From NCBI GenBank assembly GCA_037043015.1, contig CM073326.1, positions 6,642,345 to 6,706,344 on the forward strand: a stretch of DNA of 64,000 nt, read 5' to 3'. Shown here piece after piece: positions 30,221-53,879 of this stretch. Source of the stretch: Bryum argenteum (Eukaryota > Streptophyta > Bryopsida > Bryales > Bryaceae). The notes under the pieces are model-generated. The model did not search any database and was not told where the DNA came from. It worked only from the letters and a program-made list of their open reading frames with translations. Each line of letters starts with the position of its first letter. Position 1 is the first letter of the stretch. A program made the translations under genes and the position numbers.

Positions 30221-32010
30221 TTTGATATGTACAGCGCAAATGCTCAAACTTGCCAAATCAAGCGTTGATACTCCTGCTCAAGCTCCTTAAGTACTCCCTC
30301 GTCGTATCTAACTTGTCGGTACACATTCTGCAAAATTCACCGGAACAAGGCAATCGTGTAAGTTTTCTATACTTCAGCCACAACCCTGCCTAACTCTTGA
30401 GTCGCAAGGTTATACAATCCGATTACAGCCCTCTATACTTGATGAGCCATTAAAACAATTGATTCAGTTATAAAAGGTTCTTGTGCATAATCTTCGTCAG
30501 CAGCCGCACGATAGTATTGAAAATGATGGCTTGCGCTTCCCAATAGATACTACTGCCGGATGTATGAAGAAGTATCCTGACGATATGAAAGAAAACATTC
30601 GACATACATTCGATATGAAAGAAAGCATTCTACAGAGGCTCATAGAAAATTTCAGAAGTACAAGACAGTACAATCACATGAGCTGTTTTGGAGGAGAGAT
30701 ACTGAGCACTTCGCGAAAAGGCATACCCAGATGCGACGGAGATTAATTTCGTAACGCAACAGATCGTGTTTTCAAAGGATACTAAACTTTGCGACGATTT
30801 CGACGAAGCAAAAAATATTTCTCAAAATGTCGTCAAGAGATGTAGAACTAGAGTAGCATCCTCTTGTGACCATATCTAAAACTTGCACACGGGATACATC
30901 AAGAAGACTAACTGAAAATAAAACACCTTTACCCAGCATATGAACCCTAAGAATGTCAAAAACATAATTCTCATTCTAGAAGTAATGGCTGCTGGTTGCA
31001 TCACGATGATAACAGGAGCACAAGCAGGTCCGAACAAGGATAAGCCTGACATGTAATCACTGCAGTGATGAAAAACTAACCGGATAGACCTCTTACTTCC
31101 TAACTAAGATGCTCGTGCTCATCTCGGATCCATACATGGCGATCGGCAACAAAACATCTAACTCTCGAACAGGAACCGAATTTTCCTCTAAATGCAGCAA
31201 CATCGCAATAAATTTTTCCACAACAATTTTTCCACAACAATAAATTTTGCAGCAACAACTAACCTGGCATTGCGGCATACATCCGACAACCTAGCGCTTA
31301 CTCTCAGTCCAAGCTTAAATTCATTCGATACACGAAGGAATCTAATGCGCGAGTGAAGATTGATACCTAAACGCCAGAGTAATCAAACCGAAATGCCTAT
31401 CCGTTAAGTAAAACAAACAAACAAACAATGCTCGTCATACGGGATGCAATTTCACACGCAAATCTCGATCCAAATCTGGCATCCGACAAGTAACATACAC
31501 TCCCAGCCGAAGAATTCGAGAACTAACTCTTAGTTCGTCAATCCAGCGCAAAATGAGTGTAGCAATCAAACTGAATCGCCTACCCAGAAATCAAAGAAAC
31601 AAACAAACAATGCTCGTCGTACAAATTGCAAATTTCACACTTCTTGAAACAAGAAACAAATCTCGATCCAAATCTGCCAGTCCGAAGGGAACGTACTGTA
31701 CCGGCAGAAAATTCAAGAACTAACGCTTACTAGTATGTAAATCCAGCCTTCGTGCACATACAGAATTTAGTAATCGCTTCGCCAATCCAGCCTTCGTGCG
31801 CAAACAGAGTTTAGTAATCTAAAGGCTAGGCGCAGCCACACTTACCAGAACGGCGAATAATCTTCCACGAACAAAATCTCTGAGGAAGAGTCCACGAACA
31901 AACCTCCCCGTGCTAAATGTGCATCGAAGTTCGTATAAGAACATCAAATTCCAAGAAACAAACAGTGAAACTAGGCAGAGGAGTGACTACTTCCTGAAAT
32001 GGTAGAGGAC
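30221..32010 (-). promoter_or_regulatory. NDB1 5'UTR with a probable 1.5-kb leader intron and a uORF
   Basis: On the minus strand a strong donor CTG|GTAAGTG lies at 31846/31845 and an acceptor TTTTGCAG|A at 30328/30327, with no coding sequence between. This suggests a leader intron of 1518 bp. The second leader exon would carry a 22-codon upstream ORF (ATG at 30326, stop at 30258), ending 37 nt before the main ATG at 30220. Transcription would begin somewhere near 31.9-32.1 kb. Leader introns and uORFs commonly set expression level in plants. All of this is inferred from splice-site words only. Confidence 0.5.
31300..31830. repeat. Diverged tandem duplications inside the NDB1 leader intron
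   Basis: Blocks 'AAACAAACAAACAATGCTCG' followed by 'AAATCTCGATCCAAATCTG' occur at about 31411-31478 and again at about 31592-31678, a spacing near 180 bp. Shorter blocks ('CCAGCCTTCGTGC...AGTTTAGTAATC') repeat at about 31743-31775 and 31788-31820. These are local tandem duplications, not mobile elements. Confidence 0.7.
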
Positions 32011-32370
32011 TACGACTACTTCCTGCATAAGGAGTCTAGTGGTCCGGCACTGACAGTGAGGGTGCGAACCGATCAAAGCACAAACCCTGGCGGATTGAGC
32101 GAATGAGAGGGAGGTGCGAGACTAAAAGGCGCCGAAAAGAGCGCAAGGAGGGAGCGGGAAGATGCTCTGCTCTGGAGTAAATTCATGGTCAATCCAGAAA
32201 ATTGGGTTGTTGTTGAGGGGATTGCGAATTTGCGAAAGGGGTGCTTTGCATCGCTGTTGCAGTGCTGCTGTGGGGAATGTGGATGACGAGCCACTTGGAT
32301 TGCAAGCATTGATGCATGGATTGTTCCGACTTACCAGCTCTCCTCTCCCCGCCCGCCCCTTCTGCTGCTG

Positions 32371-32805
32371 TCACGTGTATAACATTGGTCGACCCAGCTC
32401 CTTTTCTTTTCGCTGGCCCAGCTCTTTTTCTGTCCGCTGGCCCAGCTCCTTTTCTTTCCGCTGGCCCAGCTTCTTTCCCTTCCGCTGGCCCAGCTCCTTC
32501 TCTTTCCGCTGGCCCAGCTCCTTTTCTTTCCGATCGCCCAGCTCCTTTTCTTTCCGATCGCCCAGCTCCTTCTCTTTCCGCTGGCCCAGCTCCTTTTCTT
32601 TCCGCTGGCCCAGCTCCTTTTCTTTCCGCTGGCCCAGCTCCTTTTCTTTCCGATCGCCCAGCTCCTTTTCTTTCCGATCGCCCAGCTCCTTTTCTTTCCG
32701 ATCGCCCAGCTCCTTCTCTTTCCGCTGGCCCAGCTCCTTTTCTTTCCGCTGGCCCAGCTCCTTTTCTTTCCGCTGACCCAGCTCTACTTCAACTTTGACA
32801 GCCAT
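32371..32805 (-). CDS. Hypothetical protein of Lys/Glu-rich octapeptide repeats (doubtful gene)
   Basis: An open frame of 144 codons from ATG 32805 (context AGGATGG). After MAVKVEVE it consists of about 16 copies of ELGQRKEK or ELGDRKEK and ends ELGRPMLYT. The protein would be highly charged and could form a helix or coiled coil. However, the underlying 24-bp repeat is a multiple of three and is open in several frames on both strands, so the frame may be a by-product of the minisatellite. I do not recognise the protein. Confidence 0.25.
   Translation of the reverse strand: MAVKVEVELGQRKEKELGQRKEKELGQRKEKELGDRKEKELGDRKEKELGDRKEKELGQRKEKELGQRKEKELGQRKEKELGDRKEKELGDRKEKELGQRKEKELGQRKGKKLGQRKEKELGQRTEKELGQRKEKELGRPMLYT
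32394..32784. repeat. 24-bp minisatellite with two alternating unit types
   Basis: About sixteen units of CCCAGCTCCTTTTCTTTCCG followed by CTGG or ATCG. The two junction types occur in blocks: five CTGG, then two ATCG, three CTGG, three ATCG, then three CTGG on the + strand. This indicates duplication of multi-unit segments rather than single units. It lies about 400-800 bp upstream of the presumed NDB1 transcription start. Confidence 0.95.
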
Positions 32806-32842
32806 CCTGTACTTCTTAGCCAGCTGAAGTCTGTTATGTACT

Positions 32843-32916
32843 AGAGAGCGGTCAGGGATCTGCTGATTCTGCAGACTAGCGAGGTCTGCAGAATCAGCAG
32901 ACCCTGACTGCTCTCT
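32843..32916. repeat. Near-perfect 33-bp inverted repeat (hairpin)
   Basis: Arms 32843-32876 and 32884-32916 are complementary over 33 bp, with one G-T type mismatch and one bulged A, separated by a 7-base loop TAGCGAG. No target duplication was found. The transcript of either strand would form a long, very stable hairpin. Confidence 0.85.
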
Positions 32917-33134
32917 TGCGTTAAGCTTTGAGGCTGAGTATTCCAAAAATATACGGTCTAATATACCATATACGATTAAATGATGGAATGAACGATGATT
33001 ATAAACGACTGTTGAACTTCTAGATCCGTGAATGCCTTGCAACTATCAGTAGTAAAAATAATCGGCAAAGCGAGCCGATTCTGGAAAACAATCAAGCTCG
33101 AAATGAGCGGAATACGCAGCCTCAGAGTTTAACC

Positions 33135-33326: not shown

Positions 33327-34767
33327 AGTAATCAATCCGCATATTTACTTGGGAGTGGCTAAGGGAATCAATATCGGGAAATGTGTAGAGAATTTAGGAA
33401 ATTAAATCACTAGAATCACAAAAGTTGAATTTATCTCCAAAAGTTATGAAATCTAGAATCGGTAACGAAAACTACACAAGAGTTGTTGATAAGTGTTACA
33501 ATTGTGAGTTGAGCCATTGGATGTCACATGTCACCATAGTCTTACAACACTAATTTTCAAGATGTGACAACCTGAACAATTCCTTGGTAGGAGAAGAAGT
33601 TTTTGGAATTGGTGTAATTTGTGATTTTTTAAGAAAAGATATAGCATTGATTGTTGTAGGGGCTCAAATGAAACATCAATCTCAAAAGAGTTGATAAATA
33701 TAAGAAGGTGCTCAATAATGAGTCAATTTCTCAGCTCGAAAAAATATAGGGGTGAGACTAGTGCATGCAATTTTTTTGTGCATAGAGAAAATCTGTAGAA
33801 AGGTGGAGCGAGTGGAATCATCATTTTTGGACTCCCTACAATGAGTTAAGAATTCTTTAAGTTGGAAATAAAGGTTATTCTAAAGCGGAGACCTAAAGTG
33901 GCACCCTATTATGTTTGCAGTGAATATACATGGTATTGATGTATGGCAAAACTATTATGATAAGTGCACCTATTTCCTGACACTTAAGCCATTCACCTAC
34001 TTGGGAGTGATGACATGTGTGATTTACTATTTTTTAGTGATTAACAAATAGAAAAAACAAGTTCTCCTTATTTTTGTAGTATTTAAAAGCACTTACAAAT
34101 TTACTTACAAATTTTAGAGATGGCTAATGTAGTTACACCTATAGTCGTTCACCCTATTGCATGTGCATATTAATGGACATACTATTCAAGAAAATCATCA
34201 TTTCATCCCAAGAAAGTCTTCATTTTGCATTGTCAGAATATGAGGGGCCAGTCGGATTTAGGTGTACTTACCCTACATAGCTTTGAGCAAAGATTACTAG
34301 AGCTCTAGTATGGGACCTGCTACTATAAACACAGAATTAGGAATTTTTGCACTTGGGGGTAGAATCATGCACTTGCAAATGGATGGTTCAAAAAATCACA
34401 TTTAGTGAAATTAGGTGTACCATTTCATCCTTGAATGTCGTATCCTATTTTAATATCAAAATTCTAAAGAAACATTCATTTCTGGTAATTATTGAACCTC
34501 ATGATTGGATGCAATGTATCTTGAAAATTTTCATGTGTAGCATTCATTTCCCAGAGTTTAGACCCCTTCAAGTGGTATAAATGGCCATGTTATCCAAAAC
34601 TTTATCGCATCTTTGTAACAAAAAAGACATGTAATGTATAAGAAATCTAATACTTCTAAAACTCCTTTAGTTAGCAACCATAATTTATGATTACCACTAA
34701 AATAAACTTACACTGCTAAAAGTACACATTCTCTTCTCTAAATATTTATTTCTCCCTAATCTCTATA
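33327..34767. other. Non-coding stretch
   Basis: No gene recognised; AT-rich with stop codons in all frames. Confidence 0.5.
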
Positions 34768-37700
34768 CTAATAACGGTCTATATCATTTTGAAGGCGTTC
34801 GTTATCTATGTATTCAACTTGCATTGCAATGTATGCTAGAAGGTGTGGTTTTGCAAAAATTGGAATTTTGATGTTTCGCTCCGTTGAAACATCGTGTATT
34901 GGAATACAAAGTTGTTGCGGTTCTTTGGTTCTTGCATGTTGTGTTTCATCCACCCATGAATAAATCGATGCTTCTTTCTCCACCCATCCATGTCTTTCAC
35001 CCGATGGCTCCCACTTTGACTCCATGCAATTCGAATACCGTTGTCTATCAAGAACCGATGATATTTCTTGGGATCCCCTCCATTGCGGCCAGTACCACAC
35101 TACTTTCATTTTTGTTGCCCACCTTCCATGACCAAATTCCAAAACTTTTCCAATATAAAACGGTACACCTGCTTGAACTTCCGTGGGATCCACCGTCAGC
35201 GCTACAAAGTGTCCAACCTTCACATCATCATCTGGACAAAAATGGGTAAACGGAGCTTCTCCGTTCTCTGGTGTAATTAGTACATGCGACTCTAGTATTG
35301 AAGTTCTACGTCTTGTTGGTGCTCTTGTCGCAACCTCTTCTGATGGTCTCTCCCTACGAGGACCAAAATATTGCCTTCGTTTCTGGATCAGGCATTGTTC
35401 TCATTATAAGATCCACCGTGCTCGTGTCCAACGTTCCATCTTGATTTTCGATAGAAGTTGCGGTGCATTTACGGTTTTGCTCTGTTTGGGCTTTGATTGT
35501 CTTACGGCCAAAAAGGGGCATTTGTTGCCGTGCTCCTATCTTGTTCGGAAAGTGTTCCAAATAATCGCCAACCACTTTGCTTGATCAATGGCTTCCAAGT
35601 TCTTCTCCACGTTTTGGAATCGTTCTACACACTTCTCCTTGTAGGCCACAAAATCTTCTAATGCCCTTAGTTCCCTTGCATCACCCCCAAATACCTCGGC
35701 TAGCATTGGCTTCGCGGCTCTAGTAGGCATTGATCTCAAACATGGATGCCCATCCGGCTGGAACCCAAGCATCTTTCTTGAAAGTCTTAGATCGTACTCG
35801 AGGCATTCCACCCACCATGTAAAATCGCATGTGATGTGGGAACGTTATGCCAGTCAAAGTATCGCCACCGAAGCAAATGAGGAGTGATGAAAGACTTCCA
35901 ATCCCTCACATTCTCTAAATGCCTCGCACTCACATACGCTTGATATACGAGGTTCCTCTCTCGACTAGTGATAGTAACTCCTTCATAGAATCAATGTCGC
36001 TCCTCTTTAACGTATTTGAAATGGTACTAAAACGTTGGTCTATATCTTCGTGTGTGTGCCCAACCAATAGAAAACATAGCCCCACCTCTTGAAAAAACCC
36101 CATACCCACTAGTGCAAAGACACAAGGCGAACATGTATATGTTCTTGTTCTCCCAGCGTCGTATTATCCGCTTGAATTCGTAAAGTTGGTGGCAACATTC
36201 CTTTCCCTTCTCTTCACATCCGTAATAACATGCATCAACGAGGTAACAACTTGATTGCTATCGTGCTTGTGGTGTGCATCGAGCCATACATCCGCATAGA
36301 GGCCAATCCCCGTGCACAAGCACTCCGCATAGGTGTGTCTTCACGAACCGCCATTCAATGTTTTTCTTTGTTTGCTTCATCTTTGGCACCATTGTTGTAT
36401 TTTGGTCCATCCCATCTACGATTATGCTCATGAAAAGATCCGGAGTTATGATAGGTGACCTTTTGAAAATCCAATAATCTCGACGCTCTTCCATTTGACG
36501 GTTAATGTGTACCAAAAACAATTTTTGATTTACGCCTTGGCCGCCTCATTCGTTGTGGATTCCATGCCACATTTGTACTCCCAAAGAATGAAAGCACTTT
36601 GAAAACCTTGAGAATGGTGGAATTTGCACGTGGGGAAAGTCGAGTCCTCCACATTTTGTGAAACGAACTTATTGATATTGGATGTCCATCAACTAGCTTC
36701 TTCACCTCCTCATTCACATAATGAAAGACATCGAGTTTTTGTCGTATTCATTGGCAATAGTATCAACGGCAATATTGCATCGTCGATCTTCTCTTCACTT
36801 GTCGATGCGATGCGGTTGGGTACACCCCACTTCATTGACAAACACCGCAAAACTTTTCGTCTTCTTGAGATATCTTCCTTGCTCCTTCTCGCTTACCATT
36901 ATTCCCATGTACGCATGACTACCTTTCCATACGGTGATCGTGCTTGCTTGAGTTGTTTGAAACGCCTTTGGGAGTATCCTAATGCTCGAGCATAGCATGC
37001 GTTGCATACACGATGACCATCAAGCTTGGTGTCAAACTTTTCCTTCCGTTTGGTATTTGTTCGTGTGTAAAATGAATTCAGCATTTGCATGATCCATGTA
37101 GCTCTGCTCTCATACTTTTGTGCCCATGCCATGTACCGATTGTCCAAAATTACTCTCTCGTTCACATGCTTCAAACAATTTAATGTACAACCTCCTGTGA
37201 CCTTTTCACGCCCGTGACGCTTTCAATTGTCACTTTTGTTTATTTGATTCCCCCTTCTCCCGTACTCTTGTTGGTCGACTCCTCCGGTTTTGCATCAAAT
37301 ATTTTCTCCGAGGTCTACCTTCCACTTTGATCCTTCCACTTCAAATACACCTCCAACACTAGATTGTGACTCGGTGTCACCTGGTAATGATCGTTCCCGA
37401 CATCGCCGCCCACTAGGTTGCTTTTGAGACATCCGAATCGGCATTCCATGATTAACTTCATCGTCGAAATCAAACGCAGATGTTCCCACATTTTGAAACG
37501 TAAATGATTGCCTTTCCTCTAAACCAATGTTTCTCTGTGGCAATCCACATTTTTTTCGCAAGTTTGACGCCTTCCAACGAATGACCAAACCTACACATTG
37601 TTCAAGGCGTTCTCCAACAACTTCACCAACCCAAAGTGAACCTTGAAAGACTTCCGTTACACACACCGCAACCTCGTCAGGGTTAATTTCAAATAATGTA

Positions 37701-37942
37701 ATTCCATCCCTGGTTTGTAGGTTTGATCTACGAATCCTTGCCCTACCAATACGTCGTCCTCTATAAGAAGCTCTACAACTCCATCTGGCGTACTCAAGTT
37801 CCGTTGCTCTCCAAGAGTTTGTCTGTCAAAGTCTCATTGCAAGACTACGTACAAGTCTTCTACCCACCGTATTTGTTCTTGTTGTGGGAGGTGCTACATT
37901 TTGATACCCAACAACCGGACTTCCAAAACCCAAATTCTCCAT
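34768..37942 (-). pseudogene. Decayed mobile-type gene of the DUF7869 family
   Basis: Minus-strand pieces in different frames line up as one protein from about ATG 37942 to stop 34768. In order they are: an N-terminal region; a Cys-pair segment with HRVCNACYARALG (about 37000); SISSFHKMWRTR (about 36660); the hallmark IIVDGMDQ (about 36410) then THLCGVLVHG (about 36320); QADNTT and, shifted, ENKNIYMFALC (about 36130-36180); the hallmark VGHTHEDIDQRFS (36064-36026); and a C-terminal VGDFVAL-like segment (KVGHFVALTVD, 35219 down). DGMDQ, QADNT..ENKN and GHTHEDIDQRF in this order are what I know from DUF7869 proteins, which are multicopy and element-like in many eukaryotes. Several frameshifts and stops show that it is dead. 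Family name from memory, moderately sure; its enzymatic role is unknown. Confidence 0.7.
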
Positions 37943-39404
37943 CTTTATCTACCAACAAGAAACCCACAAACACTATGTCATTCATAATGTGAAGCTTAGA
38001 AATCTCAAGGTAAGCATTGTTTTTCAAACTCTACTAATAATGTCCAAATCATCAAGTTCACTTGATTTTGAACCACAAATTGATGTAATACCTATGAGAT
38101 CCTAGTTGGACACTTTGGATGACAAGCTCAAATTCATTAAGAGACCCGAAACTTATTGATAGCATTCAATATTGGGAGATTTGGATTAGGTTGAACTCCA
38201 AATCACGTGTAGGTTTTTTGCTACAAGTTACAAAGTTGAAGAAGACCATATGAACGTATAGCATGCAATATATGAAGGTAGCTCTATTTTGAGAGACTTA
38301 AAACGTGAGGTATGTTTTACAACTCGAAGCCAATTAAATTCCAAATACCCGATAAGGGTGTTACACATGCCACAATCTTTAAAAATAAAACTAGTAAATT
38401 TTGTATAGTGTATGACATACACTCTATATGTCTCGCATATGGAAATGTCATTATGTCGTAAGAGACAAAATTACATATTTGTCAATATCTTTGATTCTAA
38501 GCATAAATTATTATTAGTATAATATGTGCATGCCCCTTGTACCTCAAAGCTTGTAATCACGTATGGAAATTTATAAAGAAAACTACTAGAACACTACTAG
38601 GGATTTGCAAGGTTTTTTGGAAATGTTGTCCAAGCAAAACAACATCTTGGTACTTGCTCTAGCAATTTTTCCAATTTTAAATACTTAAAATAGTAAACAA
38701 AGTTTTTCATCAATATAATAACTTTACTTAATTTTGTAGGAACATTACTAAAGCAAGACCTAGGACATTCCTTTACTTGCGTAGCGTTTGACAAAAAAAC
38801 GTAGAGATTCCCCTTTTAATTTTTGGTAATGTAAAAATGTATATTTTGGTTTGATAATACAAATGAGAGTAGATTATAATACGAGGTTGTCTACATGATT
38901 TTAATTCACTATAAAATGTCATATTTATGGAAATTCTATTTTATTTCTAAAAAATCGAAAATCGTCGAAGGTGCTATTAATATAGTGCCACCGGCGCTCC
39001 CAAAAAATTTCAAGTCAATATCATCAAATTTGAGTAAATTAGAGCCATACGAGACTTGGGAATCTCACAACACAAAAGTAAACTAAAATTTGAAATAAAC
39101 GGTTGCTTGAAATATTTTATGAGAATACTACATGCATGCTATTTATCCATACTAAATAACATGAAGATGCAACTTCCCAATGCAAATATTAGAGCAAACC
39201 ATAGAAAGTAATAGAAAATAGAAAAGGAAAAGAAAAGAACAAAAACTAGAAAAAAATCAAAATAAAAAATCAAATAAAAATAAGAAAACAAGATCAATTA
39301 CTAAACAGAAATGAAAAAAAAAAAAAAAAAAATGAAAAAAAAAAAAATGAAAAAAAAAAAAATGAAAAAAAAATGAAAAAAAAATTTAAAAAAAATTTAA
39401 AAAA
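37943..39404. other. AT-rich spacer between two divergent decayed genes
   Basis: No gene. It contains a decayed CACTA-type MITE (38592-38830) and ends in a strongly A-rich tract with repeated ATGAAAAAAA words (39305-39405). Confidence 0.55.
38592..38830. mobile_element. CACTA-type MITE, decayed copy
   Basis: Starts CACTACTAGGGATTTGCAAGG and shares with the element at 62029-62621 the inner blocks 'GGTACTTGCTCTAGCAA' near the left and 'AAGACCTAGGAC...GTAGCGTTTGACAAAAA' near the right. The right terminus is diverged and I see no matching target duplication. Confidence 0.55.
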
Positions 39405-39720
39405 AACCTGCCGCCCTGCGGCAGCGCAGACCTCCGCACGCGCGGAGGGGTGCTGGCCGGCAGCAGGCAGGCTGCCGCAGCAGCTGGCCGGCAGCAGCTG
39501 GCTGGCTGCCTTGCCGCAGCAGCTGGCCGGCAGCAGGCTGGCTGGCTGCCTTGCCGCCTGGCTGCCGGGCAGGCTGGCTGCCTAGCCGCCGCCCGCCGGG
39601 GCAGGCTAGCCGCCGCCTAGCCGCCGCCCGCCCGGGCAAGCTAGCAGGCATGGGGAGGGTATAAGTACCCCTCCCCACATTTTATTTTCATCAGTTGAAA
39701 ATTTGCAAATACCTTGGAGG
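39405..39720 (+). promoter_or_regulatory. GC-rich island with a TATA-like palindrome, likely promoter of the ParB/MTase-like element gene
   Basis: About 245 bp of very GC-rich DNA (CTGGC/GCCGC words, including a 40-bp tandem duplication at about 39473-39552) stands out in AT-rich surroundings. It is followed at 39651-39677 by TGGGGAGGGTATAAGTACCC, part of a near-palindrome centred on TATAAG. Downstream, CTTGGAG|GTGAGA (39719/39720) is a good splice donor and CACAATAG|AAACATGG (40807/40808) a good acceptor four bases before the ATG at 40812. The layout therefore suggests a TATA promoter, a short first exon and a leader intron of about 1.1 kb. Confidence 0.5.
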
Positions 39721-40811
39721 TGAGATTTTTTTGAAACAACAAGAACTAACCACCATTTCAACCTTTTATACCAAACAAATTAGGGTTTCATGATTAAGAA
39801 TCTAAATTTTACATGTTTTTTCAAGTTCATGTAAGTTTTCTTTTACAATGTTAGGGTTTCATTGCAAATTAATGTTTTTGTAATTTTAGGGTTTTGTATT
39901 TTATTTTATTTTTTTGGTTGTTTCATTGTTTTTTGTGTTTATATAAATTTTTCATGAGATACTAGGGTTTCATTGCAAATTTATTTTGGAGCTTTAAGAA
40001 TTTCCATAGTTTGATTTTTTTAATTTTTTCTTTTTTTTTTCTTTTTTTTTCTTTTTTTTCTTCTTCCATATTGTTGTGGTTTTATAGATTTTTGTGGTTT
40101 ATTTTGGAATTTTAGGATTTTATTGCAATGCTTTTATGTGGTTATGGGATTTTGTGTCGTTTGTAGTTTTTTGGACTTTTTGCTATTTTTGTAGTTTTTC
40201 TTTTTTAGCAATTTTAGAATTTCATTTCAAGAATATTTTCAAGTTCTAGGTTTTTTGTTTGATTGTGGGTTTTTGTGGTTTTGGTATTAATTGTTGTATT
40301 TTGAGCTTTGAAGTTTCTTTCAAGTTTTAAATTTTCTATTAAATCAAAGCTTTATGTAACTCATGACTTTCATTGCAAAATCATTCTTTGAATTTACTTG
40401 TGATGGTTTGTAGCCTTGAGGTTTTTTGTAATTTGTGGATTTTTGTGGGTATAGATCTTTTTTAGATTTTTTTTAGTTTTGATATTTGATTTTCCAAAAC
40501 CTACGAGAAAAATTTGATCAACTCAAAAGTTATATGTGTTTGTGAAATCATTATTTCTTACAACATTGTTAAATTCTATCTTTCAAACTTCTAGAAAATA
40601 AACAAATAAAATTACTTTTACAAAAACCAATGTAAAAGTACAAACTTTTATTTTTTTTCATTTTACCCACTTTTAAAATAATAAACATTTATAAATATAT
40701 TACATTGATAAATGTAAATTATCACATGATAATTTAGTACTTAAGAACTTTATTTTTTTATATATATACCGATTATCGTTTGTTTATTAGATATATCTAC
40801 ACAATAGAAAC

Positions 40812-43800
40812 ATGGCACCTCAAAGTCAATGGAGTGAAGACGGGTGGATGATATTGGCTCCAAACAAGGACCAAGCTCGATTATGGATTTTGGACTACCC
40901 GTTGGTACGTGGTCGGAGATTTGTGCAATCGGCAAGGACGTCGGGCAAATTGAGAAAATTGTAGCGATTCCAGAGGGGTTGGTTAGTGAAAGTCCGAACT
41001 CGTGCGCATGTAGTGACCCTATACAAGATTGAGAAGGGAATATCTTTGTGAAATTCCTAATTTGTTGTTTGAAGTCGCAAAACCGCTCCGAACATTGCGC
41101 TCTTTAGCATCATTTTGGAAAGGTTTGATCAAGACGTGAGAATGGAACGTCTTCTTTGCCATTGTGAAAGCTAGGCGGTGCAATCACGAGGAGATATTGG
41201 AACCGAGAAATCAAGTATATTCAAAGAAAGAAGGGATTTAATCGGCGGCAAAGAACGACCTAACGCACTGCATTTTCGTGAGTGTCGGGAGCGGCATCAC
41301 ATGGACCTCACACTAGTCCGATCGATCGTATGCAGATGTGGTTAGTAATAGAGTAAGGAATGATATTCTATCACAACAGGGCATGTCACACATCCAATGC
41401 TACAAACAGAGCCAGAGAGAGGCACCTTCTTCACAAACACAACCTCCAAGTGCCACGAGACCAACACCAACACGTAAGGCTACGAAGTGGGTCCGTCTTC
41501 TAGCGTGAGGAGGGCAAGAAGTGCAAAGACGTGCTTCTACTCAAAGTCCAAAGATCAACATCACGTGTGCCAAATGTTGCGGTATCGGGGAAACAATTCA
41601 AGTGGAGGAGGAATATCACGAGGACGACCAAAGCTCAAAACAGTACACATAGTGGAGCTCCATTTGCCAGGTTCGAAGCGCTCATAATATTACTACTCCT
41701 ACGAGTATTAATATTTCAAGGAGTGCAAGACTAGCTACATCGATAGCACCAACTCGACTCGGCGGTCGAATCAACTAGAGGACGTGGAAGACGATCACCC
41801 ACATCAAAGAGCTCCACAAACTCAAACACCGCTAGAAGGCAAGCACGCGTGTTGTACAACAAAACACAATACTAACAGAAACTCCGGGAGCGGGAGCAAG
41901 AGGCGGGGATCGAGAAGATTTGGACAACCCTTCTTCCGATGAGGAAGAACCAAGAGAAGTGGAGAAAAGTACTAAAGGCCCTGATTGCATTCCCATGAGA
42001 GGAGGAATTTAAAGTTCTGGATATGTGTGGGGATGGAGGCGGTGTTTAAGATTCGCACGGAGAATGTACGGCGTGCGATAAGTGCAGAAACCAACCATCG
42101 GGCATTGTCAAAGAAGCGTATGGTCGAGATATATGAACGTCTACGAGGAGATGATGAGGACCTCGTCCCCCATTACACTTTCGCCGATTGCATTTCTTGA
42201 AAAGAGAGTGGATGGTGATGGCAATATAGTAGAAAAAGAGGTTCCATTCGGGAAGGAGGATCTGATGGACCATTTCAAAACCGTATTTGAGAAGTATCAA
42301 AGGCAACAAGACAATACAATGGACATTTTAAAGACGGAATGGTTACGAAATGCAATAATATGGGAACCGGTGGATGGGCAACACATTATAGAAGCATGCA
42401 AGTTTGCAAAACAACAATTGGCGGCCCAAAGACTCTCTCAAGAAGAATATGCAAGTATATTTGCAGAACGGGCAGCAAAATTTGTTGTATACAACAACCC
42501 TCAGTTTTACATTGAGGCCTCTGTGCGGATCAATGCAAAGCAGTTTGAGAGAAAATTTTACATGTCACTACAAGACCAATTGGTGAAGCTCAGGCAGATC
42601 TGGGAGTCTTGTAGGATGCTACAAAGCTATTTTGGAGGTGTGCAAAGACTACAAAGATGGTTGTTTATGGTATAGTAAAGCAGATGAGAAAAAGTGGAAG
42701 AAGTATGCTAAGGAGAAGGGGTTGGATAGTACGAGGGATCTAAGACCAAAAAGACCAAAGATGGAGAAAACATGGTTGAGGCCTTTAACAAGGGTACCAC
42801 CCTGAGAGTACCTACAATTGGCTAAGGAGATGGTAGCTAAACCTATTGTAAATGGAAAGAGGAATTCCCGTAAGTTCTATTTCAATAGGGCTCATAGGGG
42901 TTTTATGGAAAAACAAACTCGAATGGATAGTAGATCGACTACAACGTCGACGCGCCAGATTCAAAATGCATTGCGGTGGTTGATAGTATCTAAAGGAATG
43001 GAGCACCCAACATCCATGGAAGATTTTTACAACATAGATGTTGTGCGATGCAGTGGAGAGAGAAGGCAAGACAGTTTCAAGCGCTTGCAGAGAGAAATAG
43101 ACAAAGACATGAAGAATACTTGGTCAATGCCATCGTGAAAACCATGGGGAGTTTGGTTAAATTTGGAGAGAAAATCAACGCCCATGTGAAACAACATTTC
43201 AAGACGTGAATGTTGGTGGTAGAGGTTACGAAGGTTTGGGAATAAGAGGAGATCAAGAGGAAATTTCCAATGGGATTGGAGAGTTGATGTCAAGCAAGGA
43301 GATGAAGACCATAGTGTGGGAACGATTCCAATCGATAGTTCAGATTCTTTAGTGATGAATACCATGAAATGCAAATGCCTTGTTTGTGGGTATTCGATTG
43401 TCGAAGGGGAGTATGGATGGCGGGACAAAGCTTGGACAAGAGGAGAATACAAAAGCGTCTTCGTAAGGTACGAAAGTGGATGAGTAAGATTTTAAGGTGG
43501 ACTATAGTCTTTTTATTTCCACCAGGAGAAACCTATGGCGACGAGATGCAGGATGTTCTGGGTGACATAGAAGGAATGACGTGCGTGAGAGGGATTTGGG
43601 CGTTCCAATCAGACACCGTTAAAGATTACAAAAAGAATTTTAGGGAGGGCGGCAGGGTTAGACGCAAAGTACAAGCCCTTGGAAATATTGTAGTGTTGAT
43701 GGAACACCCAGTTGATACAGGAGCTATCAAGAATTTGCCGAAGAAAAAAGATGTACTCCCAACCCTTTTTCAGGACTCTTGGACAGCTGGAAGGGTGCCT

Positions 43801-44876
43801 TCAAGCGTTGACAAGCTAGAGAGAGATCCTATGGAATTGCGTAGACTTGTTCAATCGTATTTGCATCCTAAATGGACGTTGGTGGCATTTGGGATTAAGA
43901 CATCCATTCCGGAGATACTGACAGGTGGATTCGAAGGGCAACAAATTTTGTCTTGATCAATCTCAAGCCCGAACAACATTTTTGTACAATACCCTAGTAC
44001 AAGAATTCAAGGGCTTCATGAGACAATCACCACCACAAAATTTGGCGGACGTAGCGGGACCTTCAACAAGACATGCGAGGAGGATCACGAAGATGAAATT
44101 GAAGAGGACATGAAAGAGATTCGAAGAAGAATCAAGAAGAAGAAAGGTTTATTACAACCGATGAAGATGATAGTGATGATCATGTTTCCGATGATTACAC
44201 GAGTCGAGAATCTTTGGAGCCATTGGAGAGAAGAAGGCGGAAGACGGTTGTACAATCGGCAATAGTAGATGATGATACCCAACCAAGAACAACGAACGCA
44301 TCGAGGATGAGGACGGCAAGTACCAATGATGGAGGGGCGGAAGAATCTCCGATACCACTTGATGCGGTACCGGAAGTCGGTTGGTAGAGGGGAGGGCATT
44401 ATTGGAGAAGTGTTGGTAATAGTCCAATTCATAGAGCACATCAAGAACCGGTTTACAAGGGATTTACCGCTACCAAGAGAGAGACAACGTCTTGTGATCA
44501 CCTTTTGAATGGGCAAACACCGAAGCACGCAATGATCCCGGGGAATGAGGGTTTCTACTTCAATCCGAGGGGGTGAGGTTTCGCCGCATTGGTGAAGAAG
44601 GCAACCATACTTTTGTGGAGGCATCGTCTATTTTGGAGGAAAATTCGGGGTTGGAACGAGTGCCATCCGGGGTGATAGATGCTATGGTGGCGGAAGGGGC
44701 AATGGATTATGCGGACCCCTCGATTCCATGGGAGATGCGGCCACGTGAAGGGCGAGGAGTTTTTGTCATCGAGAGAGGAACGACCGCAATCCGAAAGTGT
44801 CGAGTTAATAGCGGAAACTCCTCCGGACTTGCATTGATAGGTTTTAATATATTTGGATGGTGTCAAATATATATTT
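40812..44876 (+). pseudogene. Decayed element gene with ParB-like and methyltransferase-like segments
   Basis: A broken reading frame on the + strand starts MAPQSQWSEDGWMILAP at 40812 and continues through several frames. 42196-42620 is open and resembles the ParB/Srx fold: EPVDGQHIIEACKFA (from 42364), then AAKFVVYNNP and SVRINAKQFER. Next come Lys-rich segments (42650-43130), a Cys motif CKCLVCGYS (about 43369), and FPPGETYGDEMQDVLG (about 43515). 43700-43956 reads LERDPMELRRLVQ...WTLVAFGIKTS, and after a frameshift FCLDQSQARTTFLYN. This order resembles motifs X, I and II of N4/N6-type DNA methyltransferases. The last piece (44573-44876) is unrecognised. At least five frame breaks. The segment assignments are my inference by pattern; no DPPY-type catalytic tetrad was found. 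Confidence 0.5.
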
Positions 44877-46500
44877 GATTTGTGACATGAAAGCATGTAA
44901 TGTTTTTTTTGGAGTAAAGTAATGAAAGCTTTCTTTCGTCATGATGTATTTGAGTTTGAAATCGCAATAATTGCATGTTCTCATATGAACGATTCTTACC
45001 AAAATGTTGATAAAATTTCATGAGCGTTTTAAAAATTCTTGTATAAAAGTTTTGCTTGCTGCAATGACATTTATTAAGTGTACGTTGTCATGACGAAGAT
45101 AGGATACCTACATTGATACTGGTTTGGTATACCAATTTGAAAAAATTAGGGATTTTGGTCAAAACCGATTGCAAATGTACATTGCACTTCTTGGGTGCAA
45201 AATTAACGAATTCGGTGTTTATAGTGTAATGGGTAACTTTTGGTAAATAACGCTAATCTCCAAATAACACTAATCAACAACTCTTGTGTGATTAATACAC
45301 AGTGTAAATCATGATTACATTGGAGATTGAAGGTAGAAGCCCCTATGTATTTCTATTTTAAATCAAATTAATGTGCAGTTTTATAATGCTATGTAGATTT
45401 TGAGCCACCTACCTTACAAAATGGAAAGGAAAGAAACAATAATTACAATAATAAACTTACCTCATCCATGAGTAAGTTTACTGCAAAAAATTGTTTGGCC
45501 ACGTATTGTATTTGTGAATTGGCATAAATAAAACCTTATACTTGTAGTGTAAGTATTAGGTTATGTTTAGGGCTTCAAAAGAATTTAAATGTTTTATTCT
45601 TCTGATTTGTACAACTCATCATCATTTCAACGAAGACTTTGTTAATTATAAAAAATGCATTTTCTTGTAATCTTGATATTGCTCTATATCGTTCTTTTGT
45701 TGGTGTTAACATTCAAGGCATTCTTTTATTTCGAACAAGGCATTCATCATGTGTAATGAAATTCACCTTTACTGTGATCAGTGTTCAATAATGATTGGGA
45801 AAATCTATGTATTGTTCAAACACTTTTACTTCATTTTGAACAAATAAGTTGAGTATAGAAGGCATATACTTTGTTTTGTCAGTTTGTGAGGACGGTGAGA
45901 TCTAGGGCACTGCCGATCAGATCAGGGTGGAGAGGTGTCATTGGAAGCGGGTATTATAGCAATGGTGTGAGCAACGATTGAGTCGGAAATCAAGCCTAGG
46001 CTTGTAGATCTCAAGCTACTGAAGTTCATAGTATTTATGACCCCAAAAATATTGAAATTACTAGAAATTCTGAATAATGACCTAGTTTATATCAAGAAAA
46101 ACAAGAAAGACCCAACCATGCAAGAATTGCGTCCTTTGGAACCTTATAAAATTAATAACAATAAAAAAGTGAACTAGAAGCTTAGAAACACGCCTTTTTG
46201 AGATAGTAGCAAGGATGGGGTGAGAGACTACGAAGATGGGGGCATCTATGATTGAAGTAGTTATGTGGAAATGGCAACGCCGTGCACCGACGTACTAGTA
46301 CAACCTTGTGTGTGAGTTATCAAAATCATGCAATGTCTCAACCAATCTTGTACATGTAAGTAGCGACCTCAATGTATCTAAACATTCAATTTTAAAAAGA
46401 AACAATCCTTAGTATAAAAGAAAACATTCCACGTACTGGGGAGGGGCAATTTCCACATCAGATTTGAAATGGTCCACGACATTCTAAATGAATTAGTACT
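44877..46500. other. Non-coding stretch
   Basis: No gene recognised; AT-rich. The last 100 bases grade into the upstream region of the DExH1-type gene. Confidence 0.5.
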
Positions 46501-46970
46501 TGCCATGTGGCAGCCTTGAGCAACTGTAACAGATTGTTTTCGTTGAAGCTGATCGTCGTCTTCGTCGTCCGGCGCTCCGGCGTCGTCAGCGTCGTCTTCA
46601 GCAATTACCGTCGTCGTCTTCATCAATTATCGTCGTCGTCGTCGTCGTCAATTATCGTCGTCGTTTGCACCTGCACATCGTCAATCAGCCTGACAGGCTT
46701 GAAGACTTTCACGACTTCGTCTCTGCAACTGGATCGTCACGAGCCACTGATCATGAATTGAAGCTTCGTCACCTTGATTTTGTTCTTCTCCTTGATTAGA
46801 GCTTCTCACAATTTGAGATTACAGAGCTTGCTGTTAGCAGAGGGAAGTTCTAGTTGAGAGGGCTGGCCGTCGGAAGGGTTTCCTTGCTAGGACACGCAGC
46901 GACAGCGTTCCTCTACAGCTGCTGTAGTCAGCGAGCTCCTTCTTGGAGGAGGTTAAGCGCCACCGCTGCA
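46501..46970 (+). promoter_or_regulatory. DExH1 upstream/5'UTR region with an imperfect (GTC)n tract
   Basis: The 470 bp before the helicase ATG contain an imperfect GTC/CGT trinucleotide tract at about 46553-46672, including six CGTs in a row, and TC-rich sequence typical of plant leaders. Its frame on + reads through from a TTG at 46854 into the helicase without a stop, but there is no ATG before 46971. Confidence 0.5.
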
Positions 46971-49900
46971 ATGCCTGGAGGGCCGAATTCGCAAGGGCGC
47001 GGTAGAGGAGGCGGAGGTGGTCGAGGTGGCCGAGGAGGTGGTGGCGGCGGTCGCGGCGGCCGAGGTGGAGGAGGTGGAGGCGGAGGCCAGCGATGGTGGG
47101 ATCCTGCGTGGAGAGCCGAGAAGCTCAAGCAGATGGCAAGCGAGGTAGCTCATCCCTTCTTACATTCAGAACTCTTCTCCCTACATTGATCCTTAGCTTC
47201 AAATGAGGACTTTCCAGCCTTCTTTCTGATCACTTTCAAGTGAACTTGAGGCAGCTGATCGTTGATGAAGGGTTAGGGTTTTGGAAGATTTTGCAATTCG
47301 GAATGCTTAAGCAATGTATACGTTGCTTTTCTCCGAGTGAGAAGAATCAGGAAACTCGTTTACCTCATCGCATCTAGATTTGAAAGAGAGAAGGCTCTCT
47401 CGCAACCAGTAACGCTCCATTGCAACTTTGAGCCTTGTTCGGGTCATTACTGCTTTCTGGTTCTCCAAATTGATGTAGGCAAACTTGATCAGCTCGGAGT
47501 GAAACAACTCGGCTTGATAGAGGGTTTGGTTCTAGGGTTTTAGAGAAGTATATGTTTGACTCTTCCTGTGAGTAGAGTCGTACCAAATTGACATAATGCA
47601 AATTTTGAGTGAATGTTGATGACAAGAATGGTTTTCATAGAATTGTCTTGCACTTGTGAGCCTTCTCTAGAGGATTTGAGCCTTTTCGAGTAGTACAGGC
47701 AAACGGAGTGCTGATACTCTAGGTAGAGTGTTTGACTCTAAGGTTCTGGAAGATTCTCCATCTTAACATTCTGAAGGACCTATTTCACCATACGCTGAAT
47801 TGGCATGAAACGTAATACCTCATAGAGAGAGTATGACACCAAGTCGTGAGCTCAATCTGAACAATTGAGAGCACCGAGCTATCGCCTCTGCCTTTAAGAG
47901 CATGATAGCTACAATCTTGAGAGAATGGTAAAGGTTACTTCTGGAAGCCAAGCTATTACTTATTAATGCTCAGTTGATTGCTTGCACAAGGTTCTGATTT
48001 TGTCCAATTGATAATGCAGGGTCCGAAGGAGGAAGTCCTGGATGAGAATGAGTGGTGGGATCGTTTGGAGAAATTGAAGGTTGCCACGGATCAACAGGAG
48101 GTGGTGATCAAGCGGAATTTTGGTCGTAGTGGCGCAGAGATTCTGGAGGATTTTGCACACCAGCTTGGCCTTCACTTGTAAGTCCTTACAGACCTCCAGG
48201 TTCACTTGGTTGACTTTGCAGCACAAAGGCTAGAAGCAGGGGTATTCAAAGCATCGGGTACACATGTAATGCCTTGTTGAGGGTCATGTTGTGCATTGTC
48301 TTGAAGGTGAGGTTGGTGGGAATTGTTGGGAAGGAAGTCACGCGTATAACAAAGGGAGGAATACAGTGCTGGTAGTGAGCCAAGTACCGTTGCCGAATTA
48401 CCGAGCGGATCTTGACGATCGTCATGGCTCTTCTCAGCGTCAGGTTGGTGCTCTTCCTATCCTGTACCATTAACGCACATTTCGGGTTGCGACCAACAAC
48501 ACATCAATCTCTAAGTGCAGGTGGAGGACGAAACTTTCATGATTGTGAAGTGACCAAGTGTGAAAAAGATAGTGCAGACAGAGCTAGTGAAATATCACCA
48601 AATCATCGTGTAGAAAATTATGGATTGCTTGAAACATGAATGAAACTGAATGAGTGACCTTCTCTCAAAGATTCAAGCACGAGGATAAATTGCTGTCGAT
48701 TGAATCAATCCGAAGGGGATGGAATATAATCATGCGTGGGAATGTCATTAAATTTTCTTGTCAGGAATGAATTTAGCGCTAGATAATCAAATCTGACAAG
48801 TATCAACTCTATATGTTGACGGAATTTGGTGTGCATAGAATGCCATGCTGTCTAAAGCTGCTGGTGTTATCAACTGCAGATATCGATGTCTGCCACTACG
48901 GAGACTCGGGTGGAGAACATGCTTGCAAATATCCGTAGTGCAGATACGCCATCGTCGTCCTCGAGTGTACCTCAACCGCGGTCGAGCTCGGGACAAGCAG
49001 CCCCCCAAGGGCTGGCTTCGGGAGCAGACAAGGAAAGGGTGAACTTAGAGCTCAGAGAGAGTCAGCGGCAGCTAAAGGTTGTAGCCTAAGGCGCACGCAC
49101 ATTCTTTTCATCATTTTTAGGACATGCTAGGTGAGAGATTTGTGGTTGTTAACATTTGTGACATATCTATCAGGCTAGAGTTACTGAATATGTGATTCGT
49201 TGTCAATAGGCAAGTGGAGCAGTGAAGGCCTTGGAGGTGTTTCGAAAAAAATTACCTGCATTTAACATGAAGGCGGAGCTTTTGGATGCCGTGAAGAATA
49301 ATCAGGTGCGCTTCCTCCGATGCAAATTAAAAACACTTGAAGATCTGTTGTCGTACTGAGGACTAATGCTGATTGCACAAATGTTGCGGTCAGGTGGTTG
49401 TAGTCTCTGGGGAGACAGGTTGTGGAAAGACAACCCAGTTACCTCAATTCGTGTTAGAGGAAGAGATAGAGGCTGGTCGGGGTTCCGATTGCAACATAAT
49501 CTGTACTCAACCTAGGCGGATTTCTGCTATGTCGGTGGCAGCTCGTGTTGCCGCGGAACGTGGGGATGCACTGGGCCAGAGTGTGGGTTACCAGATCCGC
49601 TTGGAAGCTAAACGATCTGCACAAACGCGTCTATTGTTTTGCACCACTGGTGTGCTACTCCGACGGCTGGTATGTTCTCACAGTGCCATATTGTTGTATG
49701 TTGTGGCACAACTACCCAGCTTCTAGTACGAGTACATAGACACTGTTGCTCAAATTGGCACTGCTGAAATTTACTATCTGCGCCACTTCAAGCCTTTTGA
49801 CTTATCTCTTGTGATCTCTGGGAGAGCAGCACTAGGTGGAGAAATCTAAGGGTAGAGAGCGAATTAAGTAGAGATCATTACGTGTCTTCAATGCAATTGT

Positions 49901-52900
49901 AAAGTGGGAGGTTGTAGACTTCTAAAGGTGACAGTAGACAATATTTTACCATTCATAGTTGAGGGGCCTAGACATACATGCTCACGCCACTTAAAGCAAA
50001 GGCTGATCAAGTTCATGGCTACATGAATTGCTGTTAGTAACTCCGGTCACGATAGGAGACGCGATCAGGTCCTTAGCTTAGCATCTACTATCTTTGTTTT
50101 TGAGCAGTGGCATTGTTGAGAGCAGGTCCAGGAGCCCGACCTGAATGGTGTGAGTCACGTCATGGTGGACGAGATCCATGAGCGCGGCATGAACGAGGAC
50201 TTCTTATTGATTATTTTGCGGGATTTGCTACCTCGTCGCCCTGACCTGCGACTGGTGTTGATGAGTGCTACCATCAATGCGGAGTTATTTTCAAAATATT
50301 TTGGAGGTGCACCGATGAAGCATATCCCTGTAAGGCTCCTTTCCCTAGGGTATGTACTCATATTGTTCTGAGGCGTACTCCTAGACGTATCTTCGCCCGT
50401 CTTTGTGAGATCCATCTCTATATTTGTGTACTTCTTCACTGATTCCTACTATATTACTAGTCCTCATATCCTTGATGATATGAGGTTATTTATTGAAGAA
50501 GTGTTCGTTGGACGCAGGGGTTCACGTTTCCAGTAAAAGAGCTGTTTTTGGAGGATGTGCTGGAGCTGACTCGCTTCAATATTGTTGCTGATCAAGGAGG
50601 ATTCAGTAGTGGAGGTGGAGGAGGTAGAAGACGGAAGGCACAAGAAAAGGCACAGGATCCAATCCTTGAAGCGTTTGAGGTACGACTCTTGTCAAAGTGC
50701 TGAGACCACTCTTGGGTCTGAATTTGAAACCTGCACTAGATTTCTTCTGACTTGTGAGACATCTATAGGTGTTGTTTTGTGGTATGGACGCTTCGATGTT
50801 GTTTGAGAGTGCATTTCTGACAACGAGACATTTGTGACGCAGGGAGTGAGCGTAGATTCTGAGTATCGTAAGTACAGCCGGAGTACTCAGCAGTCACTGC
50901 TAGCTTGGAATGGAGATCAGATCGACTTAGGACTGGTGCGTTTATGATTTCCGGCTTAATGTGCTTATACAGTTGCCTACACGTTGTCGACGATTACTTT
51001 GGACTTTAATAGGAGATCGACTGCTCATTTTCGGTTTGACAGGAGATGGTGACCAACCGCTTATTCTTTTATTCGATGTTAAATGTGATGTTGTAGGTGG
51101 AGGCAGCTCTGCAGCACATTTGTGTGAAGGAGGGGGAAGGTGCAATTCTCGTGTTCTTGACGGGGTGGGATGAGATCTCGAAGCTCGTAGAGCGTCTGAA
51201 AGGGAATTCCATGTTTAGTGATACTAGAAGGTGTCTTCTGTTGCCTCTTCATGGGTCCATGCCGACCATCAACCAGCGAGAAATTTTTCAGAGGCCTCCA
51301 GCTGGTGTGCGGTAAGTGTGCTTTTCAACTCTAGAACACATCATCTTGCTTATCTGAAAAGTCTTTTTCCTTTATGTTGAGTTCAAAGAGAACTAGTTGC
51401 TACCGTTTGTGATTTTCTTATGACCATTGATTGGATGATGCGTGGTCCGAACCAAGACTGTTGTAGATTCTCGTTAAAGTAGCAGAATGTTTATATTTCT
51501 GTCATCTCTGTTTGCAGGAAGATTGTGTTAGCCACCAACATTGCTGAGACCAGTATCACGATTGATGATGTAGTTTACGTGATTGATTGTGGGAAGGCGA
51601 AGGAAACCAGTTACGACGCATTGAACAAACTTGCATGTTTAACACCAGCCTGGGTTTCCAAGGCTTCTGCACATCAGGTTTGTGTATAGATTCACATACT
51701 CTCGATCATGTGAATGTCCATTTTGCCATATTATTATTTTATACTGTACACGCCATCGTATATACAGCTTTTACTGATTTTGTGATTTTGTAATTGTCGC
51801 AGAGAAGAGGAAGAGCTGGACGAGTCCAACCTGGTGTTTGCTATCATTTGTACCCGAAGCTAGTGTATGATTCCATGCTCCGTTACCAGCTTCCTGAGAT
51901 ACTAAGGACACCTTTGCAAGAGTTGTGTCTTCAGATAAAGAGCCTACAGCTGGGCAACATTGCTAGTTTCTTGTCGAAGGCCTTGGAGCCACCTGAAGTT
52001 CTTGCAGTACAGAATGCCATCGATCTACTGAAGACAGTTGGTGCTTTGACTCCTGAGGAGGTTTTGACGCCTTTGGGTACGTTTCCCTAGACTTGTGATC
52101 TCCTTCTATGCGGTCCTTACACTAAGGTGTGTATCGTGGTAGTCATGTACATTGACCGTCAATTATTCAGGATCTGTAATTTATCTTTCTCCTTGCGTCT
52201 CTGTCCGTGTAATATGCGGAGGCTATCCTCAATTCAACCATTGTATTTTGAGAAATTGGATAAATATATCATACGTTGTACATCGTTGTTGACTCCAACC
52301 GGCATGAATCCACAGGTTGTCATTTGGCAAAACTTCCTGTGGATCCCAAAGTGGGCAAGATGCTTCTTATGGGGGCAGTCTTCCAATGTCTCGGACCTGC
52401 TCTTACCATTGCAGCAGGCCTTGCCCACCGAGACCCGTTTGTCCTTCCCCTCGAACACAAAGAGGAGGCAGATGAGGCCAGACGACACTTTGCTGGTGAT
52501 TCTCGCAGGTACCAGTTCATCTAACCTCAAAGCTCTATCGAAGTTGGTTCTCTTGTACAAAATCAGCTGAAGTATATCCGTTCCCGTGATCATGCTATCA
52601 AGTCTGGTGTCAAATTCTACGTAGGAGTTCCATTGAATTTCTGACGGGATCATCACTGTGTTGCTTTGCAGTGATCACATCGCGCTGTTGAAAGCTTTTG
52701 AAAGCTGGCAGGAAGCGAAGCGAGCAGGACGGGAACGCAATTTTTGTTGGGAGAATTATCTGTCTTCAAACACACTCCAAATGATGGACGACATGCGTCG
52801 CCAGTTCCAGGACTTACTTTCCGATATCGGATTCTTGGATAAATCCAGAGGTCCTCAGGTGTGCATACCACGTACTTGTAACCACAGACTCTAGATGAAC

Positions 52901-53662
52901 TGTATGTTTTTCCATCAATTCTGCATTCACTGAGATCTGGTAGAATGGGCAGGAGTGTCAATTTCGAGATTTCTGGAGTGTGGTCCATCAAGCATGAGAG
53001 TTTTTGAGAGCTGATTCACTTACTATATTAAAACCACGATGTTGCAGATCTACAACCAGTACAGTCAAGATTTGGAGATGGTTCGAGCCGTTTTGTGCGC
53101 GGGTCTGTTTCCTAGCGTTGTCCAATGTAAACCTCGTGGTAAAAGAACCGCATTTTTCACGAAGGAGGATGGCAAAGTGGAACCACACCCGGCATCCGTG
53201 AATGCACGTGTGAATTCCTTCCCACGGCCATGGCTGGTGTATGGGGAGAAAGTGAAGACGAGTGCAATCTATGTTCGAGATTCAACAAACGTGTCTGATT
53301 ATGCGCTGCTCATGTTCGGAGGAAATCTAACAGTCAGCAAAAACGAGCAAGGTGTTGAGATGTTGGGAGGGTACCTGCAGTTTCAAGCTTCGAAGAAGAC
53401 TCTTCAGTTGGTTCAAGTAAGTTCATCTCTCACTTTCCCAAAGTGCTATTTGACTTGTATTGTTCCAATTTCTCACGATTTTTATTGTAAACAGGAGCTG
53501 CGGAGACAACTTGATCTGCTCCTGGACAGGAAAGTTAAAGACCCTCAGTTTGATATCCACAAAGAGGGGAAACCAGTAGTCACCGCCGTGCTTGAGCTTC
53601 TTCAGACAAATGGCAGAGACGAAGGTAATAATGGTTATGGAAACTATAGCTCTAGGAGATAA
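46971..53662 (+). CDS. DExH1: DEAH/RHA-family ATP-dependent RNA helicase, DExH1 type
   Basis: Sixteen exons join without a frame conflict: 46971-47144, 48020-48177, 48338-48443, 48880-49077, 49210-49305, 49394-49669, 50126-50329, 50518-50679, 50843-50935, 51097-51311, 51518-51677, 51803-52076, 52316-52508, 52672-52858, 53048-53416, 53495-53662. They encode 1010 aa. The N-terminus [14 protein letters not shown] and the following Gly/Arg-rich stretch (1-38), then QRWWDPAWR, match plant DExH1. Motifs: Walker A GETGCGKT (250-257), DEIH (351-354), SAT (383-385), TNIAETS (567-573), QRRGRAGR (614-621), then winged-helix/ratchet and OB-fold regions. The family (related to animal DHX36) unwinds RNA or G-quadruplexes with ATP in 3'-5' direction. 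The specific RNA target is unknown. ATG 46971 has the context GCAATGC. It looks intact and functional. Confidence 0.95.
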
Positions 53663-53879
53663 TGCATGCCAGGATAGGCATGAATTACGTGAAACTGAAA
53701 AAAACTGAAAGAAAGAGAAGGTGCTCAGCTTGCCCATTTGCTTAGCTTGTGCTTGCTCCATCGAACCATCTCCCATTATATATTGTCACTTGATTGTTGT
53801 TGTTTGTAAAATCTCTCAACATTTCACAAGGAAAGGAGCTTGCCCATTCAGTGCTTATGACCGTGCAATGATTGACCAA

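Follow-up and report, generated by a model that had tools for sequence, protein, structure and literature searches.

Transposases of the Sola superfamily are of the Sola-type DDD class, and in MuDR and CACTA elements a second protein is known to bind the DNA of the element. According to passages of PMC3627910, Sola2-Fanzor elements have 4-bp duplications (AWWT, ATAT, AAAT and ATTT), and the virus-integrated elements Mariner-2_PGv and Mariner-1_OLpv encode a methyltransferase that is recognisable by database match. Passages of PMC5735166 describe VANC of VANDAL21, a Mutator-like element (MULE), as a protein that carries DUF1985 and DUF287, binds the non-coding repeats of VANDAL elements and lowers methylation. 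In this study, we analysed a 64,000-nucleotide stretch of the Bryum argenteum genome (contig CM073326.1, positions 6,642,345 to 6,706,344; the whole stretch is called the window), in which an earlier note, made from the letters alone, had read positions 40812-44876 as a gene joining a ParB-type domain to a DNA-methyltransferase-like domain. Our analysis revealed that this region is part of a 10,892-bp two-gene DNA transposon (34328-45219) and that the gene in question, hereafter gene 2, has long been partnered with probable transposases that contain the domain DUF7869.

The two genes of the element are divergent, with a shared region between them, and lie within the following boundaries:

34324..34327, no strand: left target-site duplication, TATA, with the same four bases at 45220-45223
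34328..34352, plus strand: left terminal inverted repeat, agreeing at 20 of 25 bases with the right end when that is reverse-complemented
34771..37825, minus strand: gene 1, a putative transposase gene in decay that points away from gene 2, with broken open frames and DUF7869 inside
35957..36115, minus strand: match to DUF7869 (PF25273), with LLVGHTHEDIDQRF (Pfam E=1.4e-18, 67.6 bits, cut-off 26)
40812..44837, plus strand: gene 2, the decayed partner gene, from ATG (40812) to stop (44837), 93.6% identical to copy L025 and with relatives that have one long frame
45195..45219, minus strand: right terminal inverted repeat, pairing with the left end
45220..45223, no strand: right target-site duplication, TATA

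Both terminal inverted repeats and target-site duplications, the features by which a DNA transposon is recognised, were thus found. The repeats are imperfect and start with AACAC, and the 4-bp AT-rich duplications agree on both sides in all four copies for which both ends were read (TATA for the window element; TAAA, TATT and TTTA for the other three). The search for copies covered 258.8 Mb in 25 contigs, in which DNA queries taken from two conserved blocks of gene 2 (blocks 1 and 2, located below) gave 40 rows at 74-100% identity, with the window and some fragments counted, and 41 rows, respectively. At the left boundary, similarity to the window extends as far as 34326 in copy L037, 34322 in L038 and 34324 in L039. 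At the right boundary, it ends at 45219-45227 in 14 of the 20 fetched copies and at 45217 in a fifteenth, and in the remaining five it stops earlier or falls short of the right end.

The DUF7869 match in gene 1 clears the PF25273 cut-off, which identifies the element as a DUF7869 element. Pfam describes DUF7869 without naming a function, and the name occurs in no paper of the library that was searched in full text; judged from its position in the element, the gene 1 protein is most likely the transposase. With its short terminal inverted repeats and 4-bp AT-rich duplications, the latter being a criterion of the Sola superfamily, the element resembles Sola2 as characterized in passages of PMC3627910, a likeness seen in the ends alone. 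It differs from Sola2-Fanzor in the duplications of its family and in gene 2, which has no Fanzor-like match in the Pfam scans. A transposase accompanied by a second protein, together with tandem repeats in the non-coding parts, recalls VANDAL21 as described in parts of PMC5735166, but unlike VANC the gene-2 proteins scanned have no Pfam match to DUF1985 or DUF287. Extra proteins beside the transposase are likewise a feature of the virus-integrated Mariner elements (PMC3627910, in the passages on these elements), from which this element differs in that gene 2 lacks a database methyltransferase match.

The relationship between gene 2 and DUF7869 was analysed across the genome. The gene-2 family list was obtained by a genome search with conserved block 1, in which the best 150 of 363 candidates were scored; after 14 rows that were fragments of places already counted had been dropped, 136 distinct gene-2 places remained among the matches listed. 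The DUF7869 list consists of the best 150 of 1,809 candidates scored in a genome search, and a gene-2 place was regarded as paired when a listed DUF7869 match lay within 20 kb of it, with 500 circular shifts as the control. Among the listed places, 73 of 136 are paired, whereas the shift control yields 3.1 on average and never more than 14. In 70 of these 73 pairs the DUF7869 gene lies upstream of gene 2 and is read from the other strand, which is also the layout in the window. Grouped by identity, the paired places are 22 of 34 listed places at 64% or more, 3 of 16 at 44-63%, 30 of 57 at 35-43% and 18 of 29 below 35%. Viewed from the other side, gene 2 lies nearby for 40 of the top 50 listed DUF7869 rows and for 26 of the next 45. 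Gene 2 is therefore linked to part of the DUF7869 family. In at least three pairs, both genes have long stop-to-stop frames (1402 amino acids in gene 2 and 1125 in the DUF7869 gene, 1411 and 974, and 1055 and 1099).

Purifying selection acts on gene 2 in three of the nine sequence pairs compared, those for which both methods of estimation worked (omega 0.13-0.27). The two methods gave omega values of 0.21 and 0.27 for L040-L042, 0.13 and 0.15 for L040-L214, and 0.15 and 0.18 for L042-L214. Taken together, pairing, layout and selection indicate that the element carries gene 2 as a functional component rather than as a passenger; that gene 2 serves the element is shown, by computation, by its lasting association with DUF7869 and by the selection on its sequence. 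We consider it probable, from sequence evidence, that the window carries the decayed second gene of a two-gene cut-and-paste transposon, whose product would be a non-catalytic helper that binds DNA or the transposase. The DUF7869 protein would cut and join at the inverted repeats and leave the 4-bp AT-rich duplication, and the gene 2 protein would aid this transposase or protect the element. Such a helper may be required for movement of the element or for its escape from silencing, by comparison with the second proteins of MuDR, CACTA and VANDAL elements. The searches made gave no indication of an enzyme activity of gene 2.

Several observations weigh against this interpretation. No listed DUF7869 lies near 63 of the 136 listed gene-2 places, and this is the case for 13 of the 16 listed places in the 44-63% identity band. 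The presence of gene-2 fragments, and the scoring of only the best 150 of 1,809 DUF7869 candidates, may explain the unpaired places. Listed DUF7869 rows 96-150, many of which are on contig C1, have gene 2 within 20 kb in only 5 of 55 cases, which suggests that not every DUF7869 element needs gene 2. For selection, two of the nine pairs gave a value by one method only, and there the rates were saturated (omega 0.08 and 0.27); in four pairs no synonymous rate was obtained. Finally, a motif search found no enriched short motif in the element ends, and hence no binding site is evident there.

The features of gene 2 in the window, in addition to those given above, are:

42142..42615, plus strand: conserved block 1 with IIWEPVDGQHIIEACK, the block formerly taken as ParB-like (tblastn of relatives on the window)
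42616..42617, plus strand: point of a 167-bp deletion in the window copy, relative to L025
43369..43963, plus strand: conserved block 2, LW.(V/I)DCRRG ... LERDPMELRRLVQSYL.P.W.LVA, the block formerly taken as methyltransferase-like (tblastn, alignment of 8 sequences)

What the earlier note had read directly from the letters was reproduced in part. The frame is open at 42082-42672 and contains EPVDGQHIIEACK followed by the hydrophobic stretch AAKFVVYNN; the second motif stretch, RDPMELRRLVQSYLHPKWTLVAFGIKTS, lies inside an open segment at 43339-43953, approximately 1.2 kb past 42620; and FCLDQ is present, in a different frame (43922-44113). Both segments belong to one gene, as the note had assumed, since the 1402-amino acid open frame of L040 spans blocks 1 and 2; the 1042-amino acid open frame of L025 passes block 1 and reaches into block 2. 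The proposal of a multicopy mobile-element family with long-frame relatives also held, the 136 distinct places listed including frames of up to 1411 amino acids. The 150 rows from which these places were derived range from 28 to 100% in identity. There are 28 invariant columns in block 1 among seven relatives (29-48% identity to the first), and 44 among eight gene-2 proteins, two of which are 95% identical.

The gene 2 protein consists of approximately 1,400 amino acids and comprises an N-terminal part, a linker rich in Ser, Thr, Pro, Gln and Gly, a conserved core of approximately 700 amino acids and an acidic C-terminal tail. In L040, the five linker residues make up 41 of the 100 residues at 201-300, and likewise at 301-400, and Asp and Glu account for 22 and 21 per 100 residues over 1101-1300. 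No described protein family matched gene 2 above cut-off in Pfam, NCBIfam and PHROGs searches, single members included, and sequence and profile searches of the PDB with the gene-2 family returned no relevant match. Searches for block-1 relatives in IMG/VR and in GTDB genomes yielded 38 and 13 stretches, respectively, none of which was confirmed. Matches below the cut-off were set aside: Mpp10, TFIIF, CDC45 and similar families gave weak Pfam matches on the acidic tail; ABhydrolase-like_N was matched by one member (E 0.0011 or 0.011); and TRM13 was matched between the blocks (E 0.026-0.031) in two of the four proteins scanned, which are near-identical copies, and was absent in the other lineages scanned.

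The earlier note had called the copy in the window dead. It is indeed disrupted: over 4001 aligned bases, of which 3743 are identical, it differs from L025 by 48 small frame-breaking indels, with neither the 167-bp deletion nor a terminal alignment gap included in the count. The bases of this deletion are kept in 16 of the 17 copies that span both sides, and are absent also in L021. Across an alignment of 14 sequences (13 of the 20 fetched copies, from L017-L031, and window positions 40812-44850), the small indels are unevenly spread, ranging from 1 in L017 to 59 in the window. Since 73 of the 219 small-indel sites are common to more than one of the 14 sequences, some of them in G-rich runs, a share of the frameshifts may stem from errors in the assembly, and to this extent the verdict has to be softened. 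Both shared descent and long-read errors could explain the recurrent indels, and the number of intact gene-2 copies may be underestimated.

The promoter-like GC island that the note had placed upstream of the gene is also real, but it lies beyond the coordinates given there for the gene and consists mostly of a tandem repeat: positions 39410-39660 have 78% G+C and 24 CpG.

39473..39642, no strand: GC-rich tandem repeat between the divergent genes (Tandem Repeats Finder)

This repeat varies from copy to copy, and the alignments of most fetched copies are interrupted at it. Two further observations concern the surroundings of the element. The G+C content is raised (0.42-0.53) at 25000-33000 and 46000-54000 of the window, perhaps owing to other repeats, and an open frame on the minus strand at 32192-32788 is a coding-like tandem repeat built from copies of a short unit (SERKGAGR/PAERKGAG).

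The identities proposed for the two conserved blocks were not borne out. PF02195 (ParB) and PF01555 (methyltransferase) gave no match in Pfam scans of window pieces, long copies and block-alignment members (E limits of 1, 5, 10, 10 and 10, with the HMMER filters removing most matches above approximately 0.1); at E≤10, PF02195 matched none of the seven block-1 members and PF01555 none of the eight block-2 members. Of four phage controls, three were recognised by both models at E≤0.01, two of these with scores above both cut-offs; the remaining control was recognised by neither model. Profiles of the family searched against the PDB found no ParB and no methyltransferase protein. Against the whole genome, PF02195 produced one weak match (E 1.49) away from the listed gene-2 places, and PF01555 matched 32 places, none of which is a listed gene-2 place. 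As for these 32 places themselves, for example C4:20498341-20498493 and C7:9878472-9878624, 29 cover only model positions 163-214, the C-terminal part; most are weak, two being at or just over the cut-off, and they give the impression of a further repeated gene that resembles methyltransferases.

Profile-profile comparisons gave the same picture. With narrow reference sets, block 1 scored 13.5 against ParB (17 of 60 column shuffles were as good) and block 2 scored 15.6 against methyltransferases (23 of 60), and a deliberately swapped pairing reached 21.0. With wide sets (23 ParB domains and 17 methyltransferases), the scores were 12.45 (17 of 60 shuffles as good) and 15.75 (12 of 60), and those of the swapped pairings 15.2 and 11.3. 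Held-out family members scored 73-171 for block 1 (5 of 5) and 147-271 for block 2 (6 of 6); these controls are much closer relatives, and the test therefore says little on very distant kinship. Its power is further limited by the shallow family alignment (effective number of sequences, Neff, approximately 2) and by the extent to which such folds drift. Single-sequence structure models made from the window sequence were too poor for a fold search (mean predicted local distance difference test score, pLDDT, of 42 for block 1 and 34 for block 2).

The signature residues of the two domains are also missing from those parts of the family that were read. The arginine of the ParB motif G(H/N/Y)xR is found in none of the seven block-1 members, which carry DGQ(H/Q)(I/V), and is present in all 13 ParB references that had not been selected for the motif; in the wider reference count it is present in 67 of 67, of which 54 had been prefiltered for it. 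Neither (D/N/S)PP(Y/F/W) nor DxFxG(S/T)G occurs in the 10 family entries, six of which cover each place. Among seven methyltransferase references unselected for motifs, DPP(Y/F) occurs in five, DLPY in two and GSG in all seven. The motif score of 54 of 54 for the phage fusions arises partly by construction, because these sequences had been prefiltered for DPPY and G(H/N)xR.

These results bear directly on the alternative explanations. That gene 2 encodes an active N4-cytosine or N6-adenine methyltransferase that marks the element is extremely improbable: its sole support is the motif reading of the earlier note, and the members that cover the relevant places have neither DPPY nor GSG. It would not be the first transposon with a methyltransferase, because the virus-integrated Mariner elements encode one, as passages of PMC3627910 report. 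A degenerate phage or bacterial ParB-methyltransferase fusion, which has lost its active site and now acts as a DNA-binding protein, is unlikely. By eye, the order of motif-like stretches in gene 2 resembles that of the phage ParB-methyltransferase fusions (L047, L049, L050 and relatives): TNHR is followed by DGQH and a hydrophobic strand, by LW.(V/I)DCRRG and further strands, and then by LERSPxEL-RLIxxYLP-W-LVA and VIVID, as in permuted phage ParB-methyltransferases, and the weak TRM13 matches of the two near-identical copies, under the cut-off, point in the same direction. However, gene 2 has no detectable sequence or profile kinship to these fusions: neither PF02195 nor PF01555 was matched, nor any relevant PDB entry, the profile-profile scores fall inside the shuffle range with both reference sets, the ParB arginine and DPPY are absent from the family, GSG is found in none of the six covering members, and the distance from the first strand to DGQH is approximately 60 residues as opposed to approximately 8 in L049. 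Because the order seen by eye follows that of a permuted N-methyltransferase, we keep a small share of our expectation for a degenerate descendant. Its evolutionary form, an ancient uptake of a ParB-methyltransferase by a transposon lineage in which it now serves, at more than 100 places, as a non-catalytic DNA-binding partner of DUF7869, seems a little less likely again.

By analogy with VANC, gene 2 might instead be an anti-silencing factor that binds non-coding repeats and removes host DNA methylation, which is conceivable although rather doubtful. The position of the copy-variable GC-rich tandem repeat between the two genes would suit such a role, as the VANC targets described in parts of PMC5735166 are non-coding tandem repeats; the lack of DUF1985 and DUF287 in gene 2 and of an enriched motif in the element ends argues against it. 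Capture of host gene fragments is common among plant DNA transposons, and gene 2 might accordingly be a recently captured host gene or a passenger. This we regard as very improbable and have rejected, given that gene 2 and DUF7869 are paired in the same arrangement even where identity is below 44% (48 of 86 listed places), and selection was detected in three pairs. A non-catalytic helper of a DUF7869 transposase is thus the interpretation that we prefer.

The literature searched contains no description of a two-gene DUF7869 element or of a ParB-methyltransferase transposon gene, a comparison that did not extend to Repbase. This genome thus contains an abundant group of transposons with a second gene that is under selection in the testable pairs and has no domain match above cut-off in the libraries searched, and the ParB-methyltransferase label, which is unsupported, is kept out of the annotation of that gene. 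Because of the pairing, the DUF7869 group lends itself to tests as a system of two components, and its gene 2 may lead to a helper of transposition, or an anti-silencing factor, of a new kind.

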